From positions 310,001 to 374,000 of the forward strand of contig NZ_JARBJP010000002.1 of the NCBI RefSeq assembly GCF_029309905.1: a stretch of 64,000 nucleotides of DNA, written 5' to 3'. The DNA comes from Brytella acorum (GTDB lineage Bacteria; Pseudomonadota; Alphaproteobacteria; Acetobacterales; Acetobacteraceae). Shown piece after piece: positions 46,635-52,253 of this stretch. Every line of letters begins with the position of its first letter. The stretch's first letter is position 1. The notes beneath the pieces are model-generated. The model was given only the letters and a program-made list of their open reading frames with translations. It made no database searches and was not told where the DNA came from. The position numbers and the translations under genes were made by a program.

Positions 46635-48965
46635 TTGGCTGCCAACGAGATCGTTGATCCATCGGGCAAAACCTTGCGACGTCGTCGGCGCACGTTATTG
46701 CAGATCGGTGGCCCCCTGTTTGGCGTCGTCGCGGTCGTCGCCGTTATTCTCGGAATTTCACTGCGTTCGTACCTTGTCAACCGGGCTGGCGTTCTTGATC
46801 TGACGCGGAACATGCTTTTTCTGCAGCAGCAGGAACTGAAAGTGCGGGTTTCCGACTACCTTGCGCCAGCGCCCGCGACGGCGGAAATTGCGCGCGATAT
46901 TCTTGCTCACGAAACGCTCGAGAGCGAGCCGAACGACGTGCCGCCGCAGTTGTTCCTGTCCTATGCGCAATCCATGCTCAAGAATGTCGCACAGGTGGAA
47001 AGCTTTTATCTGGCTGACGAAAATCATCGTTTCTGGTTCGTCGGACGCATGGACGATAACGGCGCGCAGCGCGTGGAATGCTCCCATCTTGTCGCTGACG
47101 GCAACGGAGGGCATTTTCATCAATGGATCTACGATACCGACGGAAAGCTGCTGCGCACGGCGGATGTCGACGCGACCGGGTATGATCCCGTCGGACGCCC
47201 CTGGTATAAGGGCGCGATGGGCAACCGGCATCTCTACTGGGCCGACCCTTACGCGCTGCGCAATAATCAGTCCCTGGTCGTGACGGCATCGACCCGTTTC
47301 AATCTTCAAAGCGGCGAAACGGCTGTTTTCGCAATCAATATCTCTCTTCGCAGCCTTTCCGAATTCCTGCGTAAGCTGAATATGGGCAAGTCCGGCCGGG
47401 CCGTCATCGTGGATGGCGCGGGCCACGTCGTGGCGGGAGAGGGGCTGGAGGATCTGGCGCGTAAATCCGACTGGGATTTCGCCCACATGACGCTCGACCC
47501 GGCGAAGGAACCAGTTTTTTCCCGGATGCTCTCGATGTATCACGTGCTTGGCGCGGGGCCACGCATCGTCAAGCAGGCGACGGGCGATTACGTAACGATT
47601 GCAACGCCGATCGATCATGCGCGGCAAAAAGGATGGGTGCTTCTGCTCGCGGCACCCGAAAAGGATTTTGCCTCCTTTACGCGCTCGGCGGGGCGTCAGA
47701 ATCTTCTGCTCTCAGGCGTTGTCGGACTGCTCGCGGCCGTGCTGGCCGGTTTTCTCATTCGTCAGAACCGTCGAACAGAGCATGTTTTGCAGGTTCTGGA
47801 AGACGAGCGGGAGATGCGGGTTGTCGAAAACGGTGTGCTGGGCACGATTGCGGCCCAGCCGGATCTGTTCGATCCGGAACATGGCGCCGAAATTCTCAGC
47901 GAAAGCCTGGCGAGCATTGGCGAGGCACGTCGGGTGAGCTTCTGGCGGCTGGTCGGGAACGACGAGCGCCTTCTTTGCGAAGATGCTTATGACAGCCAGA
48001 CGCGGGTGCACAGTACGGGTCTGGAACTGTCGAGCGCGGATCTCGGGACTTTCGTCAAGGCTCTCATCGACGATGAAATCATAGAAAGTGCTGACGCCGC
48101 CGGAGACGAGCGGCTGCGCGCCTTTCAACGCCTGTTCATGCGCGATATCGGAACGCGCAAGCTTCTTCTTGTGCCCATCAGCGCCAACGGCAAGGTCCTG
48201 GGTATGGTCGCTCTCGAAGAGGCGAGCCGCGCCAAGGCCATCGCTTATCTCGCCGCATTTGTTGGCGGCGTCGCGGCTGTGCGCTTCGCGGCGGCGGGAG
48301 AACAGGAAGCGGCGCATGAAAGCAGCCCCGTTTCAGCCACGAGCGATGCTGCCGTGCGTCTGGAGGAAGGGTTCATGCTGGCCCCGGGCGCGGATGCCGA
48401 CGATCCTCTTCCGGCGGGGCGCTACCCGATGGTGTCGGTGGCGACGGTTCTTTTCGGGGCGTCCGTGTCACGGGATTTCGAAGATGAAGTCGATCTCCTC
48501 CCGGTTGTGCAGAAAATCGCGGGACAAGTGCAGGAAATCGCGCGGGAACATCATCTTTTTTCGGCTCAGGTCATCGGCAATCGACTCCTTCTGATCGGAG
48601 GCTGCGGCAAGGAGCCGGATTACGACGCTGTCCTGCGTCTCGCGGACGCGGTGCTGGCCATTCGTGAGGTTTGCATCAACACGCTCGCGGACGCGGATCT
48701 GTCTTCAAGCTTCCGCATCGGAATGGATGTCGGCGCGGCCATCGGCGCCCAGCTGGGAGATGTGCCCGGTGTGTTCAACATCTGGGGCGACGCCGTTCAG
48801 ATTTCGGAATTGCTGGCCGACAGCATGCCGGATACGGCGACCATTCAGGTTTCTGAAAGCGCTTACACTCTTCTGCGCGACCGTTATCTTTTCCGTCCGC
48901 GCGGCAAATTTTATCTGCCCCGTTCCGGCGTGACACGCAGTTTCATCATGGCGGGCCGCCGTTGA
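46635..48965 (+). CDS. Cache-TM-GAF protein with degenerate class III cyclase domain (pseudo-cyclase)
   Basis: A 776-residue sensor-like membrane protein. Segments: TM1 (about 22-45), periplasmic Cache-type domain (about 50-330, with FYLADENHRFWFVGRMDD, DPVGRPWYKGAM), TM2 (about 355-377), GAF-like domain (about 400-555) and a class III nucleotide cyclase fold (about 596-770). The cyclase keeps structural motifs (VLFGAS, RIGMDVG, NIWGDAV, VSESAYTLL) but the residues for catalysis are changed: first metal Asp is Ser610, second metal Asp is Asn649, the base-selecting Lys is Gln645 and Asp is Asn715, and the transition-state Asn and Arg are Gln722 and Leu726. It should not make cyclic nucleotides. 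The start is a TTG with AGGA 7 bases upstream. It overlaps the MlaE-like gene by 4 bases (TTGA). Confidence 0.85.
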   Translation: MAANEIVDPSGKTLRRRRRTLLQIGGPLFGVVAVVAVILGISLRSYLVNRAGVLDLTRNMLFLQQQELKVRVSDYLAPAPATAEIARDILAHETLESEPNDVPPQLFLSYAQSMLKNVAQVESFYLADENHRFWFVGRMDDNGAQRVECSHLVADGNGGHFHQWIYDTDGKLLRTADVDATGYDPVGRPWYKGAMGNRHLYWADPYALRNNQSLVVTASTRFNLQSGETAVFAINISLRSLSEFLRKLNMGKSGRAVIVDGAGHVVAGEGLEDLARKSDWDFAHMTLDPAKEPVFSRMLSMYHVLGAGPRIVKQATGDYVTIATPIDHARQKGWVLLLAAPEKDFASFTRSAGRQNLLLSGVVGLLAAVLAGFLIRQNRRTEHVLQVLEDEREMRVVENGVLGTIAAQPDLFDPEHGAEILSESLASIGEARRVSFWRLVGNDERLLCEDAYDSQTRVHSTGLELSSADLGTFVKALIDDEIIESADAAGDERLRAFQRLFMRDIGTRKLLLVPISANGKVLGMVALEEASRAKAIAYLAAFVGGVAAVRFAAAGEQEAAHESSPVSATSDAAVRLEEGFMLAPGADADDPLPAGRYPMVSVATVLFGASVSRDFEDEVDLLPVVQKIAGQVQEIAREHHLFSAQVIGNRLLLIGGCGKEPDYDAVLRLADAVLAIREVCINTLADADLSSSFRIGMDVGAAIGAQLGDVPGVFNIWGDAVQISELLADSMPDTATIQVSESAYTLLRDRYLFRPRGKFYLPRSGVTRSFIMAGRR

Positions 48966-49768
48966 AGCGTGTGATTGAAAAGATCCGGGCTTTCCTGCAC
49001 GGGCTGGGCGCGATGACCCGTCGTCAGCTCCGCTTCAGCCTCATGCTCGTCGGCGTAGGCTGGGGAGTGTTGCGCGAAGCCATACGTCCCAATTCATGGC
49101 GTCGCAGCGTGCGGATGGAATATCGCCATTCCCTGAGGGCGGCGGCGGGCGGCGGTATCGTCAGTACGCTGGTCGTTTCCGCGCTGACAGGGTTCGGGAT
49201 CGTTGCGCAGACGATCTACTGGCTGAATGTCGTCGGAATGGAAGCGACGACCGATTCCATCCTCGCGACGGTGCTCGTGCGTGAAATCGCGCCGGTGCTC
49301 GTTGGGATCATCCTGCTCGGACGCAACGGAATGCTGGGCCTGACGCAGATCGGCATGCTGACCATGGGTGGACAGATGCGCACCTTCGAGGCGGAAGGGA
49401 TCGACCCGTTTCTGTTTTTCATGGTGCCCCGAGCCCTGGCCATGACACTGGCTTCATTCGCGCTCGGTATGCTGTTCAGCATCGTGTCGCTGTCGGTGGG
49501 CTATATCGTCTGCTGGGCGGAGAATATCGTCACGCAGTCCATCTGGTCCTTTCTCTATGATATTCTTCGTGCGCTGGAGCCGCGGGATTACGTCTCGATC
49601 CCGCTCAAATTTCTGCTCAGCGGTTTCTTCGTCAGCCTCTCCTGCACGCTGACGGGTATGGACGTGACACGCGATGATGACATCGCCACCTTGATGCCGC
49701 GAGGTTTTGCGCGTGGAATCATGGTTCTCATGGTGATCAACGTGGCGTTGACGGTAGGATTTGCCTGA
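48962..49768 (+). CDS. MlaE-like ABC lipid transporter permease
   Basis: A 268-residue permease of the MlaE/Ttg2B family. An amphipathic N-terminal region (RFSLMLVGVGWGVLREA) precedes about five membrane helices, with the family loop VREIAPVLVGIILLGRNGM and RTFEAEGIDPFLFFMVPRALAM (in pieces RTFEAEGIDPF, FMVPRALAM), where classical MlaE has LRELGPVL, GxxGxxxxAELG and EALxxxGxDPxxYLVxPR. The AELG motif reads TQIGML here, so the protein is divergent. It is expected to pass phospholipid between MCE protein and membrane. Start TTG overlapping the previous stop; the ATPase-like gene abuts directly. Confidence 0.83.
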   Translation: MKRVIEKIRAFLHGLGAMTRRQLRFSLMLVGVGWGVLREAIRPNSWRRSVRMEYRHSLRAAAGGGIVSTLVVSALTGFGIVAQTIYWLNVVGMEATTDSILATVLVREIAPVLVGIILLGRNGMLGLTQIGMLTMGGQMRTFEAEGIDPFLFFMVPRALAMTLASFALGMLFSIVSLSVGYIVCWAENIVTQSIWSFLYDILRALEPRDYVSIPLKFLLSGFFVSLSCTLTGMDVTRDDDIATLMPRGFARGIMVLMVINVALTVGFA

Positions 49769-50464
49769 ATGCGTTCCACTGAACCTGTCATCGAGATGCG
49801 TCAGGCCCGGCCTGCTTTCGACCAGGCGGGCCTGATGTCGGTCGCTTACGATCTGCGCCTCATGCCGGGTGACTGCGCGTTGATCCGGTCGCGCGACCGG
49901 GAGCGTTCCGGGCTGTTCGGGGATCTGTGCGCCGGAATGGTGCCGCTCTATTCGGGCACGCTGCGATGCATGGGTCTCGACTGGACGCAACTCGAGGTGC
50001 AGGAACAATGGGCCCTGCGCGCGCGCATCGGACGCATCGCCCAGATCGGTGCCTGGGTCGACATGTTCGGCACGCATCTGAACATTCTCACCCCGGTTCT
50101 GCACCATACGACCACGCCTGAAGACCAACTGGTCGAAGAGGCGTCGCGTCTTGCCGTGCGGTTTGGCCTGCCGGGTCTGCCCACCGTCGCGCCGGGGCGT
50201 CTCTCGACGCTGGACCTGCGGAGATCCGCACTGGTGCGCGCCTTCATGGGGGATCCGTCATTGCTGTTGCTGGAAGAGCCTGTAGGGCCCGAGACGCCCG
50301 AACTGCTGGATACATTTCTCGGCGTTCTGACTCACGCGCGGAATGAGGGCACGGCCGTCATCTGGTTCGCACGGAACGACGACGTCTGGAACTCGTATCT
50401 CAAGCAGGCCACCCACCATTTTCTCCTTCTCGATGAAGGTCTCATTCCCATGCGAGGTGTCTGA
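49769..50464 (+). CDS. degenerate ABC ATPase-like (MlaF-like) protein without Walker A
   Basis: A 231-residue protein that aligns along its length with MlaF-type ATPases by position and hydrophobic pattern, but has lost the nucleotide-binding motifs. At the Walker A position (about 41-49) it has SRDRERSGL, with no GxGK(S/T). The signature motif LSGG reads LSTLD (145-149). Walker B keeps SLLLLEEP (Asp changed to Glu169, catalytic-position Glu170 kept). The H-loop position reads FARND with no His. The Q-loop Gln (Q92) remains. No hydrolysis is expected. It lies between the permease and MCE genes exactly where a working MlaF is normally found; I see no frameshift. Confidence 0.8.
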   Translation: MRSTEPVIEMRQARPAFDQAGLMSVAYDLRLMPGDCALIRSRDRERSGLFGDLCAGMVPLYSGTLRCMGLDWTQLEVQEQWALRARIGRIAQIGAWVDMFGTHLNILTPVLHHTTTPEDQLVEEASRLAVRFGLPGLPTVAPGRLSTLDLRRSALVRAFMGDPSLLLLEEPVGPETPELLDTFLGVLTHARNEGTAVIWFARNDDVWNSYLKQATHHFLLLDEGLIPMRGV

Positions 50465-51417
50465 TGCTGCGTATACGCCATCATGATCGTGAGCAGCCTT
50501 TGCTTCGCGTTCGCTACGCTGACGAACTTGTCGGGGCGTTCGTTCTGTTCTGCATCGGGCTGTTCGTCGCCGCGGTGATCGAAGCCGGGGTGCTCCATGA
50601 CTGGATTTCGCCTCCCGCGCGTCTGCGGCTGGTCCTGCCGGAGAGCGGGGTCGCGGGTCTTGCCGTCGGCAACGACGTGGAACTCATGGGCATTCGCGTG
50701 GGCTCCATCAGCGCCGTGCATCTCAACCAGGAAAGCCGGATGTATGCGGTCGCCAACATCGACCCGCAGTTCAAGAGCTTCATCCGGCGCGACAGCACGG
50801 CGACGATCCGGCGGCGTTTCGTCGTGGCCGGAGCGTCCTATATCGATCTGTCGCGCGGGAAAGGGACCGTCATGGACTGGCAGTTCGCCGAACTGTCGGC
50901 GAAGATCGAAGCCAATCCGGCGGACATGATCACCTCGACCTTGAATGACATCCGTACGAATATCGTGCCCGTCATGCATAACGCGCAGGCCATCACCGCG
51001 GATCTCAAAGCGGTCGCGGACAACGTAAAAGCCGGGAAAGGCACTGTGGGCGGGCTGCTCGTGGACGATGCGCTGCTCAGGCGCGCGGACGCGACGGTGG
51101 CAACGCTTCAGGACACGATCGAGCGTTTGAAACCCATCGAAGGGCAGGTGGGTGGTGTGCTGACGAAAGCCGATGGAACGATGCGCAATCTGCGCGATAC
51201 GAGCGGTGCGCTGCGGAAAATGACCCCCACTGTGAACAGCGCCCTGCATCATGCGGACGATGCGACGGCGCAGCTTCCCGCACTTCTGACGCAGGCGCAG
51301 GCGACGGCGGACAGCCTGAAAAAGCTTACCGATCAGCTGCGCGGCCTGTGGCTTCTGGGCGGCCATGGGAGCGTGCAGAAGCCTCAACGGCTTGCGCCTC
51401 GGGACATACGGCCATGA
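50464..51417 (+). CDS. MCE domain (MlaD-like) lipid-binding protein
   Basis: A 317-residue protein with an N-terminal cytoplasmic part, one membrane helix (about 22-45), one MCE domain (about 50-130; SGVAGLAVGNDVELMGIRVG, with SISAVHL and RRFVVAGASYIDLSRG) and a long helical C-terminal part (about 150-300) with repeated hydrophobic heptads, such as the T-x-x-L-x-D-T patterns. Family members form hexameric tunnels that carry phospholipids through the periplasm. The long tail resembles MCE proteins with a helical needle. Start ATG overlaps the preceding stop by one base (TGATG); the next gene overlaps by 4 bases. Confidence 0.88.
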   Translation: MLRIRHHDREQPLLRVRYADELVGAFVLFCIGLFVAAVIEAGVLHDWISPPARLRLVLPESGVAGLAVGNDVELMGIRVGSISAVHLNQESRMYAVANIDPQFKSFIRRDSTATIRRRFVVAGASYIDLSRGKGTVMDWQFAELSAKIEANPADMITSTLNDIRTNIVPVMHNAQAITADLKAVADNVKAGKGTVGGLLVDDALLRRADATVATLQDTIERLKPIEGQVGGVLTKADGTMRNLRDTSGALRKMTPTVNSALHHADDATAQLPALLTQAQATADSLKKLTDQLRGLWLLGGHGSVQKPQRLAPRDIRP

Positions 51418-52253
51418 AGCGGTTCATGAAGTGCAGCGTTGCGACGGTCCTGCTGATGGGCGGCTGTTCATCGGCGCAGAAGACTTTTCCGCGTGTGGAC
51501 GACGCCTTCGAGAATGACATGGATGTCGGACATTCGTCCTTCGATCTCGAACATCCCGGTCAGGCCGTGAGCGAATATGAGGCCGCCTACAAGCGGGCGC
51601 TTCTGAGAGATGATGTCTCCGCGCTGCACGATGCGGGTTTCAATCTGGCCGTGGCACGGCTGACCCTTGGTCGACCCGATGAGGCGCTGGAGACCGTATC
51701 CCGGACGCGGGCCGATCTCGCGCTTCGTGGCGTCGATGTCAGCAGCCTCGTGGATCTGAGCGTTGTGGAGGCCGCCGCCCAATACCGTGCGGGTCATTAT
51801 GAGGACGCGCTTCGGCAGGCCGCCGCCGTCGCGGATCGAAGCGGCGTCGAGCCAGGATTGCGGGAGAGGGCCGCCTTTCTGGCGGGTCTGTCGGCCGATA
51901 CGCTTGGGCGCCCCGATGTCGTCGCACGCAGCCTCGGCGTGATCTCCGGCGATCCGCGTGCGCCCGTTCACGAGCAAGCGGATCACAAGGAGCTTGCAAG
52001 CCGGCTCGATCTCTCGAACGGTCAGACGGAGGCAGCCTGGAATGAAGCGGCCGGGGCGGCCGACCTCCGGCGTGGCATGCTGGATTATCGCGGCATGACG
52101 CGTGCGCTGCGTCTCGCGGCGCGCGCGGCCCATGCGGCGGGACGCACTGATCTGGAAGCCGAATTCACGACCCGCGCTGCGCAGAGCGAAGCCCAGATGC
52201 CTCAGGTCAAGGCTGTTTCGAGGGATGCTCCGAGCGACTTGCCTGCACGGTAA
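51414..52253 (+). CDS. repeat-containing (TPR-like) lipoprotein
   Basis: A 279-residue lipoprotein: the signal peptide ends in the lipobox LMGGC with Cys18, followed by SSAQKTFPRV. No Asp directly after the Cys, so outer-membrane sorting is likely. The mature part has helical repeats of the TPR type (ALHDAGFNLAVARLTLGRPDEALETV, in pieces; AAAQYRAGHYEDALRQAAAVA; RAAFLAGLSADTLGRPDV). It could connect the MCE tunnel to the outer membrane or organise partners. It is translationally coupled to the MCE gene (ATGA). Its last 47 bases overlap the convergent DUF3325 gene. Confidence 0.8.
   Translation: MKRFMKCSVATVLLMGGCSSAQKTFPRVDDAFENDMDVGHSSFDLEHPGQAVSEYEAAYKRALLRDDVSALHDAGFNLAVARLTLGRPDEALETVSRTRADLALRGVDVSSLVDLSVVEAAAQYRAGHYEDALRQAAAVADRSGVEPGLRERAAFLAGLSADTLGRPDVVARSLGVISGDPRAPVHEQADHKELASRLDLSNGQTEAAWNEAAGAADLRRGMLDYRGMTRALRLAARAAHAAGRTDLEAEFTTRAAQSEAQMPQVKAVSRDAPSDLPAR

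Follow-up and report, generated by a model that had tools for sequence, protein, structure and literature searches.

How lipids are moved, and in which direction, by MCE systems that lack an obvious ATPase is an open question, and the locus described here bears on it. The window, a 64,000-nucleotide stretch of Brytella acorum DNA (G000:C2:310001-374000; genome size 3.3 Mb), contains five open reading frames (ORFs) on the plus strand that span positions 46635-52253 and were all confirmed from the sequence. They encode a sensor (gene A), an MlaE-type permease (gene B), a protein related to the nucleotide-binding domain (NBD) of ATP-binding cassette (ABC) transporters (gene C), an MCE protein (gene D) and a predicted TPR lipoprotein (gene E), and successive genes meet at TTGA (A-B), at a TGA directly abutting an ATG (B-C), at TGATG (C-D) and at ATGA (D-E). 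A preliminary description had reported five co-directional genes with these four junctions and had read them as an operon-like unit in which an MlaE-MCE system whose ATPase is degenerate is linked to a Cache/GAF/pseudocyclase sensor; the ORFs and the sequence bear out the former point, and the domains, motif losses and conservation the latter. The observed basis of our interpretation is the conservation of the unit, the loss of catalytic motifs, purifying selection, a retained fold and a charge inversion. The reading that we put forward, with a probability of roughly 0.4, is a sensor-gated MCE lipid conduit that would work without ATP hydrolysis and that is laid out like the Mpc system of Brucella.

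The central component is gene C, whose product scores 20.2 bits against the Pfam ABC_tran model and so stays under the 25-bit cut-off. In the window protein the Walker A glycines and lysine are gone, the two signature glycines are replaced by Thr147-Leu148, the H-loop His is Arg202, and the Walker B Asp is a Glu. The same positions were counted in 138 C orthologs (129 distinct sequences, leaving out the broken locus L106 and loci L108 and L109, which carry ordinary NBDs with a Walker A motif) and in 41 canonical MlaF proteins from the own genome and 39 loci of related unit-carrying genomes (L234 was dropped because its Walker A is unreadable). The Walker A Lys is present in none of the 138 C orthologs and all Walker A glycine positions are gone, while the signature glycines (columns 147 and 148) remain in 2 and 7 orthologs, the H-loop His in 2, the Walker B Asp in 1 (Glu in 134), the catalytic Glu in 12, the window among them, and the Q-loop Gln in 25; the Lys, both signature glycines, the His, the Asp, the Glu and the Gln are each found in 41 of the 41 canonical proteins. 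The C orthologs thus fall short on every mark of an active ABC ATPase or MlaF, namely Walker A, the signature glycines, the Walker B Asp with the catalytic Glu, and the H-loop His. They have instead gained near-invariant residues of their own: R84 (138 of 138), H113 (136), E169 (134), D149 (133), R89 (131) and W96 (131). A sequencing artefact, which had been named as a possible refutation, does not explain losses that are common to so many distinct sequences. Judged by its motifs, C should be unable to hydrolyse ATP in the usual way.

Loss of the motifs was not accompanied by loss of constraint. The median ratio of non-synonymous to synonymous substitution rates (dN/dS) over 86 close pairs, which are not independent of each other, was 0.104 for A, 0.088 for B, 0.119 for C, 0.075 for D and 0.204 for E, and the value for C therefore indicates a maintained pseudo-ATPase and not decay. 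The AlphaFold model of C has the RecA-like and helical subdomains of an NBD, with a mean predicted local distance difference test score (pLDDT) of 90.6 and a predicted template modelling score (pTM) of 0.90. Its fold matches include LolD (Z 24.8) and MlaF (6xgz, Z 23.1, 225 residues aligned at 3.1 A), with Z values of 21.7-24.8 among the 50 entries listed. Whether MlaF is its nearest relative depends on the method, as Foldseek places MlaF 6xgz at the top and VIA and the sequence profile put LolD or MacB first.

Gene B is assigned to the MlaE permeases by PF02405 (1.1e-33, 117 bits against a cut-off of 22.5) and by a profile match to the MlaE chains in the PDB (4.8e-18); it stays under the NCBIfam cut-offs for TIGR00056 and NF033619. 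In a 62-row tree, with the window-type clade unrooted and the two deepest rows on long branches, the B-type permeases split from canonical MlaE with 100/100 support. The lipid-contact pair of the E. coli permease is kept, with R107 (E. coli R97) and E108 (E98) each present in 99 of 101 sequences; E. coli equivalents of B residues (B107 = R97, B108 = E98, B137 = E127) were obtained by counting along the printed alignment. The excerpted text of PMC7784689 places the coupling helix of E. coli MlaE between transmembrane helices 2 and 3, and gives the MlaE-MlaF contacts as E127-R52, Q128-L96, S131-R157, M135-Y108 and R142-E112.

It is at this contact that B and C differ from their canonical counterparts. 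At position 137, 36 of 41 canonical MlaE proteins have an acidic residue and 98 of 101 B-type permeases a Gly; at position 140, 37 of 41 canonical proteins have Asp, against Arg or Lys for 99 of 101 of the B type. On the other side, 40 of 41 canonical MlaF proteins have Arg or Lys at position 52, where 133 of 138 C orthologs have Asp or Glu. When all sites were screened for charge inversion (>80%/>80%), a single strong site was returned for each protein, B140 and C52, and these map to the contact at which E. coli MlaE Glu127 (B137) is reported to touch MlaF Arg52 (C52), as far as the same excerpt describes it. Of the 138 orthologs in the larger set, 124 have a basic B140; both charges are lost in four, that of C52 alone in one and that of B140 alone in ten. 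Association of B140 with C52 inside the family has p = 0.0003 by Fisher test, or 0.02 when one genus is reduced to a single count, both values being uncorrected for ancestry. An inversion on both sides of a known contact favours the placement of C on the coupling helix of its own permease and a poor fit of canonical MlaF to that permease. B, C and D probably make one complex.

Gene A combines transmembrane helices at about residues 21-39 and 357-375, and a third hydropathy peak at 535-553, with a periplasmic dCache_1 domain, a GAF domain (418-529) and a class III cyclase-like domain (619-769). Its profile finds adenylate cyclases (7e-29) and the receptor PctA (8e-20) in the PDB, and among 21 aligned A orthologs dCache_1 and Guanylate_cyc are found in all and GAF (PF01590) in 17. 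We take the active-site roles of such cyclases to be those of two metal-binding Asp, a base-selecting Lys and Asp, and a transition-state Asn and Arg. All six of these positions deviate from the active template in the window (A, N, S, N, Q, L). Residues were counted in 100 A orthologs, after one sensor of less than 700 amino acids was dropped: the first metal Asp, absent from the window, is kept in most family members (78 of 100), the second is found in 1, the Lys and the base-selecting Asp in none (the latter replaced by Asn in 99), the Asn in 20 and the Arg in 6, and no ortholog has the full set. The cyclase domain of A therefore looks catalytically dead, and no further PF00211 match was found in the own genome, so that this domain is the only class III cyclase there by that model. 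Pfam likewise found no kinase, GGDEF, EAL or receiver domain in A. Given that lack of output domains and a dead cyclase, protein contact is the only output that is visible.

The Cache domain of A is nearest to those of methyl-accepting chemotaxis receptors, including PctA. The PctA pocket residues Y121, R126, W128, Y129 and Y144 correspond, by counting along printed alignments, to A residues Y183 (87 of 100), R188 (92), W190 (98), Y/F191 (99) and Y206 (86), while the equivalent of PctA D173 is N235 (Asn in 89, Ser in 6 and Asp in 5). The six-residue dCache_1AA pattern is thus incomplete in the window, where the first five residues are kept and the sixth is Asn235. In the sections of the two papers drawn on here, R126 binds the carboxyl group of the ligand (PMC10104139) and D173 of this type of pocket is called critical (PMC11245519). 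Since the carboxyl-binding residue is kept and D173 is replaced, the ligand of A is most likely a small periplasmic carboxylate, and not, or not only, an amino acid, bound in a pocket derived from the amino-acid type; that it is an organic acid in acetic acid bacteria is a guess.

The remaining two genes complete the unit. The product of D matches PF02470 (9.4e-14, 51.9 bits against a cut-off of 25.1), has one N-terminal transmembrane helix by hydropathy, a single MCE domain and an extended C-terminal part, and finds MlaD, YebT and Mce as relatives in the PDB. The product of E has the lipobox sequence MGGCSS, with a Cys18 that never varies in alignments of 17 and of 41 orthologs, and is predicted to fold as a TPR-like solenoid of 12 helices (pLDDT 90.8) with TPR proteins among its best fold matches; its Pfam TPR matches stay under the cut-off, and its assignment as a TPR lipoprotein follows from Cys18 and the helical model. 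The earlier observation that MlaB and MlaC are missing from the unit was correct: none of the five genes is an MlaC gene, and no STAS (MlaB-like) domain was found by Pfam in the five proteins, a search that did not extend to STAS at other loci of the genome.

The unit is widely kept within its family. Relatives of gene C at E < 1e-30 were found in 21 of 100 genomes (own included), 20 of 60 from the same family and 1 of 40 from outside it. A, B and D stand beside C in all 20 of these loci besides the window, and E was found in 17 of the 20 by tblastn and in the other three (L045, L052 and L053) by profile. At E 1e-22 a profile of C picked out 138 of the 397 genomes of the family and 39 of its 102 genera, the passes including an ordinary ATPase with an intact Walker A (G210) and a short fragment (G328). 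In the order sample 180 of 395 genomes passed, in the class sample (1e-20) 14 of 385, of which six were strong (<1e-60) and included G095 and G830 from two other families, and in the phylum sample 36 of 398, six of them strongly; the weak class and phylum matches sit at the score level of ordinary ATPases. A named set of 80 loci, the best 80 of 106 picked by the gene D pattern, covers Asaia, Gluconobacter, Acetobacter, Gluconacetobacter, Bombella, Saccharibacter, Neokomagataea and other genera, and some of its genomes also occur among the other genomes compared. The order A-B-C-D-E on one strand is found in all 80 of these best-scoring loci. In them, the distance from stop to start does not exceed 20 bases at C-D in 80 of 80, at D-E in 74, at B-C in 69 and at A-B in just 44. 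The check proposed at the outset, namely whether the five-gene order holds across species, thus has a positive answer, and a unit whose motif losses are also kept across genera is more than chance. We regard it as practically certain that the pseudo-ATPase operon is real and old.

Departures from this arrangement are few. B, C and D are adjacent in 20 of 20 loci of the first set and in 36 of 38 further loci, the exceptions being L080 and L106. In L080 (G434), A-B-C is followed by unrelated sequence and D and E are lost. In L106 (G165) the operon is broken by frame changes; the canonical mlaE and mlaF of that genome (L234) are likewise broken, those of its relatives are intact, and the break in both systems is apparently an assembly error. 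Loci L084-L086 stop at contig ends, gene A reads 461 amino acids in L118, and gene E is short in L121, L148 and L180 (the last at a contig end). Loci L077, L083 and L107 read B-C-D-E, with Asp or Asn at B140 and Leu or Gly at C52, and the upstream same-strand neighbour in L077 looks by eye like a peptide-transport binding protein. Flanking genes vary; lpxB, for example, is found in 5 of 20, 2 of 38 and 9 of 80 loci. A plasmid search with the 5.6-kb unit in near mode gave no match.

Ordinary Mla-type systems exist in the same genomes, which rules out the idea that the window unit has no Mla counterpart in its own genome. The own genome has an intact MlaE-MlaF pair on contig C9, and the search for a second complete Mla-type operon that had been suggested found one on contig C4 (L055:1757-5223), an intact four-gene operon of MlaE, MlaF, MCE and ABC_trans_aux genes. 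The long N-terminal part of the contig C4 permease has no STAS or other Pfam match, so that this operon is Mpc-like by its order and lipoprotein family alone. Further MCE genes were found on contigs C2, C7 and C8. Of 27 genomes checked, 26 carry a canonical MlaE in addition to the window type, G165 being the exception, and an intact MlaF adjoins the canonical MlaE in the own genome and 25 fetched others.

According to the mechanism that we propose, the five genes would encode an envelope-spanning MCE lipid conduit that is not run by ATP hydrolysis. By analogy with MlaFEDB, two B permeases and six D proteins would form an inner-membrane port and a periplasmic tube, and E would serve or anchor its far end. 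C would be a docking and coupling part, binding the coupling helix of B as MlaF does, via a charge pair of opposite sign. A would sense a small periplasmic ligand, probably a carboxylate, through its Cache pocket and would relay a conformational signal through GAF and the pseudocyclase to C, presumably by direct contact; C would then open or close B, and lipid would move down its gradient. That A acts on the B-C-D complex is an evenly balanced proposition. A bolder version, in which the unit is a ligand-gated lipid channel made from an ABC transporter, so that a periplasmic carboxylate on the Cache domain replaces ATP, moves the NBD dimer and opens the MCE bridge, is a doubtful one; if it were true, acetic acid bacteria would have hydrolysis-free lipid flow between their membranes in acidic surroundings or those rich in oxidation products.

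Several observations weigh against this mechanism. The window C protein retains Gln92 in the Q-loop and Glu170 at the position of the catalytic Glu, so the initial statement that both nucleotide-using domains are inactive stands as regards the catalytic motifs lost in C and in the cyclase, but C in the window is not wholly stripped. Among solved structures, the sequence profile ranks MacB, LolD and BceA nearer to C than MlaF. Four weaker charge inversions are present in C besides C52, and in ten of 138 orthologs, mostly on deep branches, an acidic C52 occurs with Ala, His or Asn at B140, so the charge pair is not universal. In 3 of 38 loci (L077, L083 and L107, genus g135) the fetched neighbourhood has no gene A, and the sensor is therefore not indispensable there.

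The same evidence can be read in other ways. The unit could be a signalling device and not a transporter, in which MlaE, C and the MCE protein report the lipid or envelope state to A, or act as a relay to a further partner. BceAB-type transporters are tied to sensor kinases, and BceA-type ATPases are among the PDB entries that resemble C in sequence, while both nucleotide-using domains look dead. However, B keeps its lipid-contact pair, and A has a dead cyclase and none of the output domains looked for, which makes this reading unlikely. Similarly unlikely is that C and the pseudocyclase bind nucleotides at altered sites as sensors of the energy state, so that the system is nucleotide-gated and not nucleotide-powered, with ATP or GTP locking C closed, for example. 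The new near-invariant residues of C and the almost uniform Asn at the base-selecting Asp of the cyclase are what such altered sites could look like, but all Walker A glycines and the lysine are gone from C, and the second metal Asp and substrate Lys of the cyclase are kept in 1 and 0 of 100 orthologs.

It is more improbable still that B is powered by an intact MlaF from another locus and that C, as a regulator or inhibitor, competes with it for the site. ABC systems that share ATPases exist, and an intact MlaF stands beside the canonical MlaE in 26 genomes, the own genome included, of the 26 whose canonical MlaE is unbroken. Yet the coupling helix of B lacks the acidic residues that would meet the basic MlaF residue 52, residue 52 of C is itself acidic, and C adjoins B in every locus with a complete B. 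The suggestion in the preliminary description that the unit may borrow another ATPase is thus sound in that ordinary ATPases are available in the genome, but the inverted charges where permease and ATPase meet lower its probability. Finally, a decaying or mis-sequenced operon is hardly credible, because the losses shared by 138 orthologs, a dN/dS of about 0.1 and the confident fold rule it out for the unit as a whole, and the one broken locus, in G165, has a broken canonical mlaE too, which points to assembly errors.

The coordinates of the unit are collected in the table below. For gene E the mechanical ORF list had a start at 51348, and 51414 was used. The start codon of gene A, chosen by script, is TTG (10) or GTG (6) in 16 of 20 first-set orthologs; by this comparison a weak start codon may be a kept feature of the sensor.

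Table. Positions of the five genes and of the contact-site codons within the window.
Feature	Position	Strand	Remarks
Gene A, sensor, 776 aa	46635..48965	+	TTG start; Pfam dCache_1, GAF, Guanylate_cyc
Gene B, MlaE-type permease, 268 aa, altered coupling helix (Gly137, Arg140)	48962..49768	+	TTG start; PF02405
Codons of B residues 137-140, coupling helix	49370..49381	+	Gly137 and Arg140 in place of canonical acidic residues
Gene C, pseudo-ATPase, 231 aa	49769..50464	+	ATG start; ABC nucleotide-binding-domain fold, motifs lost
Codons of C residues 51-52 (Gly-Asp)	49919..49924	+	Asp52 in place of canonical MlaF Arg/Lys
Gene D, MCE protein, 317 aa	50464..51417	+	ATG start; PF02470
Gene E, predicted TPR lipoprotein, 279 aa	51414..52253	+	ATG start; lipobox Cys18

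If the sensor-gated conduit exists, a signal input would be linked directly to lipid flow, and the coupling could be tested residue by residue at B140 and C52. The unit would represent an ABC pseudo-ATPase maintained within the lipid system of bacteria that are used for vinegar and for sugar-alcohol oxidation. A disarmed ATPase has been retained as a part while ordinary ATP-driven paralogs are present in the same genomes, which allows the two to be compared within one strain. No MCE system with a pseudo-ATPase was found in the open-licence PMC literature, a search that does not cover subscription papers or preprints outside it.

The sensor and the transporter each have known relatives. The Cache domain and five pocket residues of PctA, a dCache_1 amino-acid receptor, are mostly common to A, which differs in having mostly Asn at the D173 equivalent and an output made of GAF and a dead cyclase. 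The E. coli Mla system (MlaFEDB, MlaC and MlaA) shares homologs of MlaE and of MCE/MlaD, the NBD fold and the coupling-helix contact site, according to the parts of PMC7784689 and PMC7367683 drawn on; the unit has no MlaB or MlaC gene, and its D protein has a longer C-terminal region. In the excerpt of PMC7367683, E. coli MlaF K47A and E170Q fail to complement, so that an ATP-driven system would be expected to suffer from loss of these motifs, and the Lys47 needed in E. coli has no equivalent in C. The MlaEFD system of Veillonella parvula likewise consists of MlaE, MlaF and MlaD without MlaA, MlaB or MlaC, and its long MlaD is thought to bridge the periplasm, as stated in the sections of PMC10665443 used here. 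In contrast to the unit, its MlaE and MlaF resemble those of model diderms, its MlaD ends in a predicted beta-barrel, and no sensor gene is mentioned in those sections (PMC10665443). The Pqi and Let systems (PqiA/PqiB and LetA/LetB), in which MCE transport relies on a membrane partner without an ATPase domain according to the excerpted text of PMC12436622, are a precedent for an MCE system free of hydrolysis. PqiA and LetA belong to another family of membrane proteins, whereas the unit retains MlaE and a pseudo-NBD.

The closest likeness in layout is to Mpc of Brucella abortus (MpcE-MpcF-MpcD-MpcA), which, within the portion of PMC12436622 consulted, shares the order of MlaE permease, MlaF-type NBD, single-MCE protein and lipoprotein. 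Four of the five genes of the unit follow this set, and MpcD, at 331 amino acids, compares with 317 for D (same portion). The opinion that no system with such a layout had been described was therefore not wholly right, given that Mpc is a similar set with an intact ATPase. What keeps the unit out of Mla or Mpc membership is the lack of an intact ATPase, and of an MlaB or STAS component, in the operon: MpcF is homologous to MlaF and its ABC part is well conserved in that account (PMC12436622), whereas the NBD of the unit is dead. Mpc also has a STAS domain on its permease and a PqiC-like lipoprotein, labels that the same text (PMC12436622) gives in part, where the unit has a TPR lipoprotein and a sensor gene ahead of the permease. 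New with respect to the Mpc order are thus the dead NBD, the TPR lipoprotein and the sensor gene in front.

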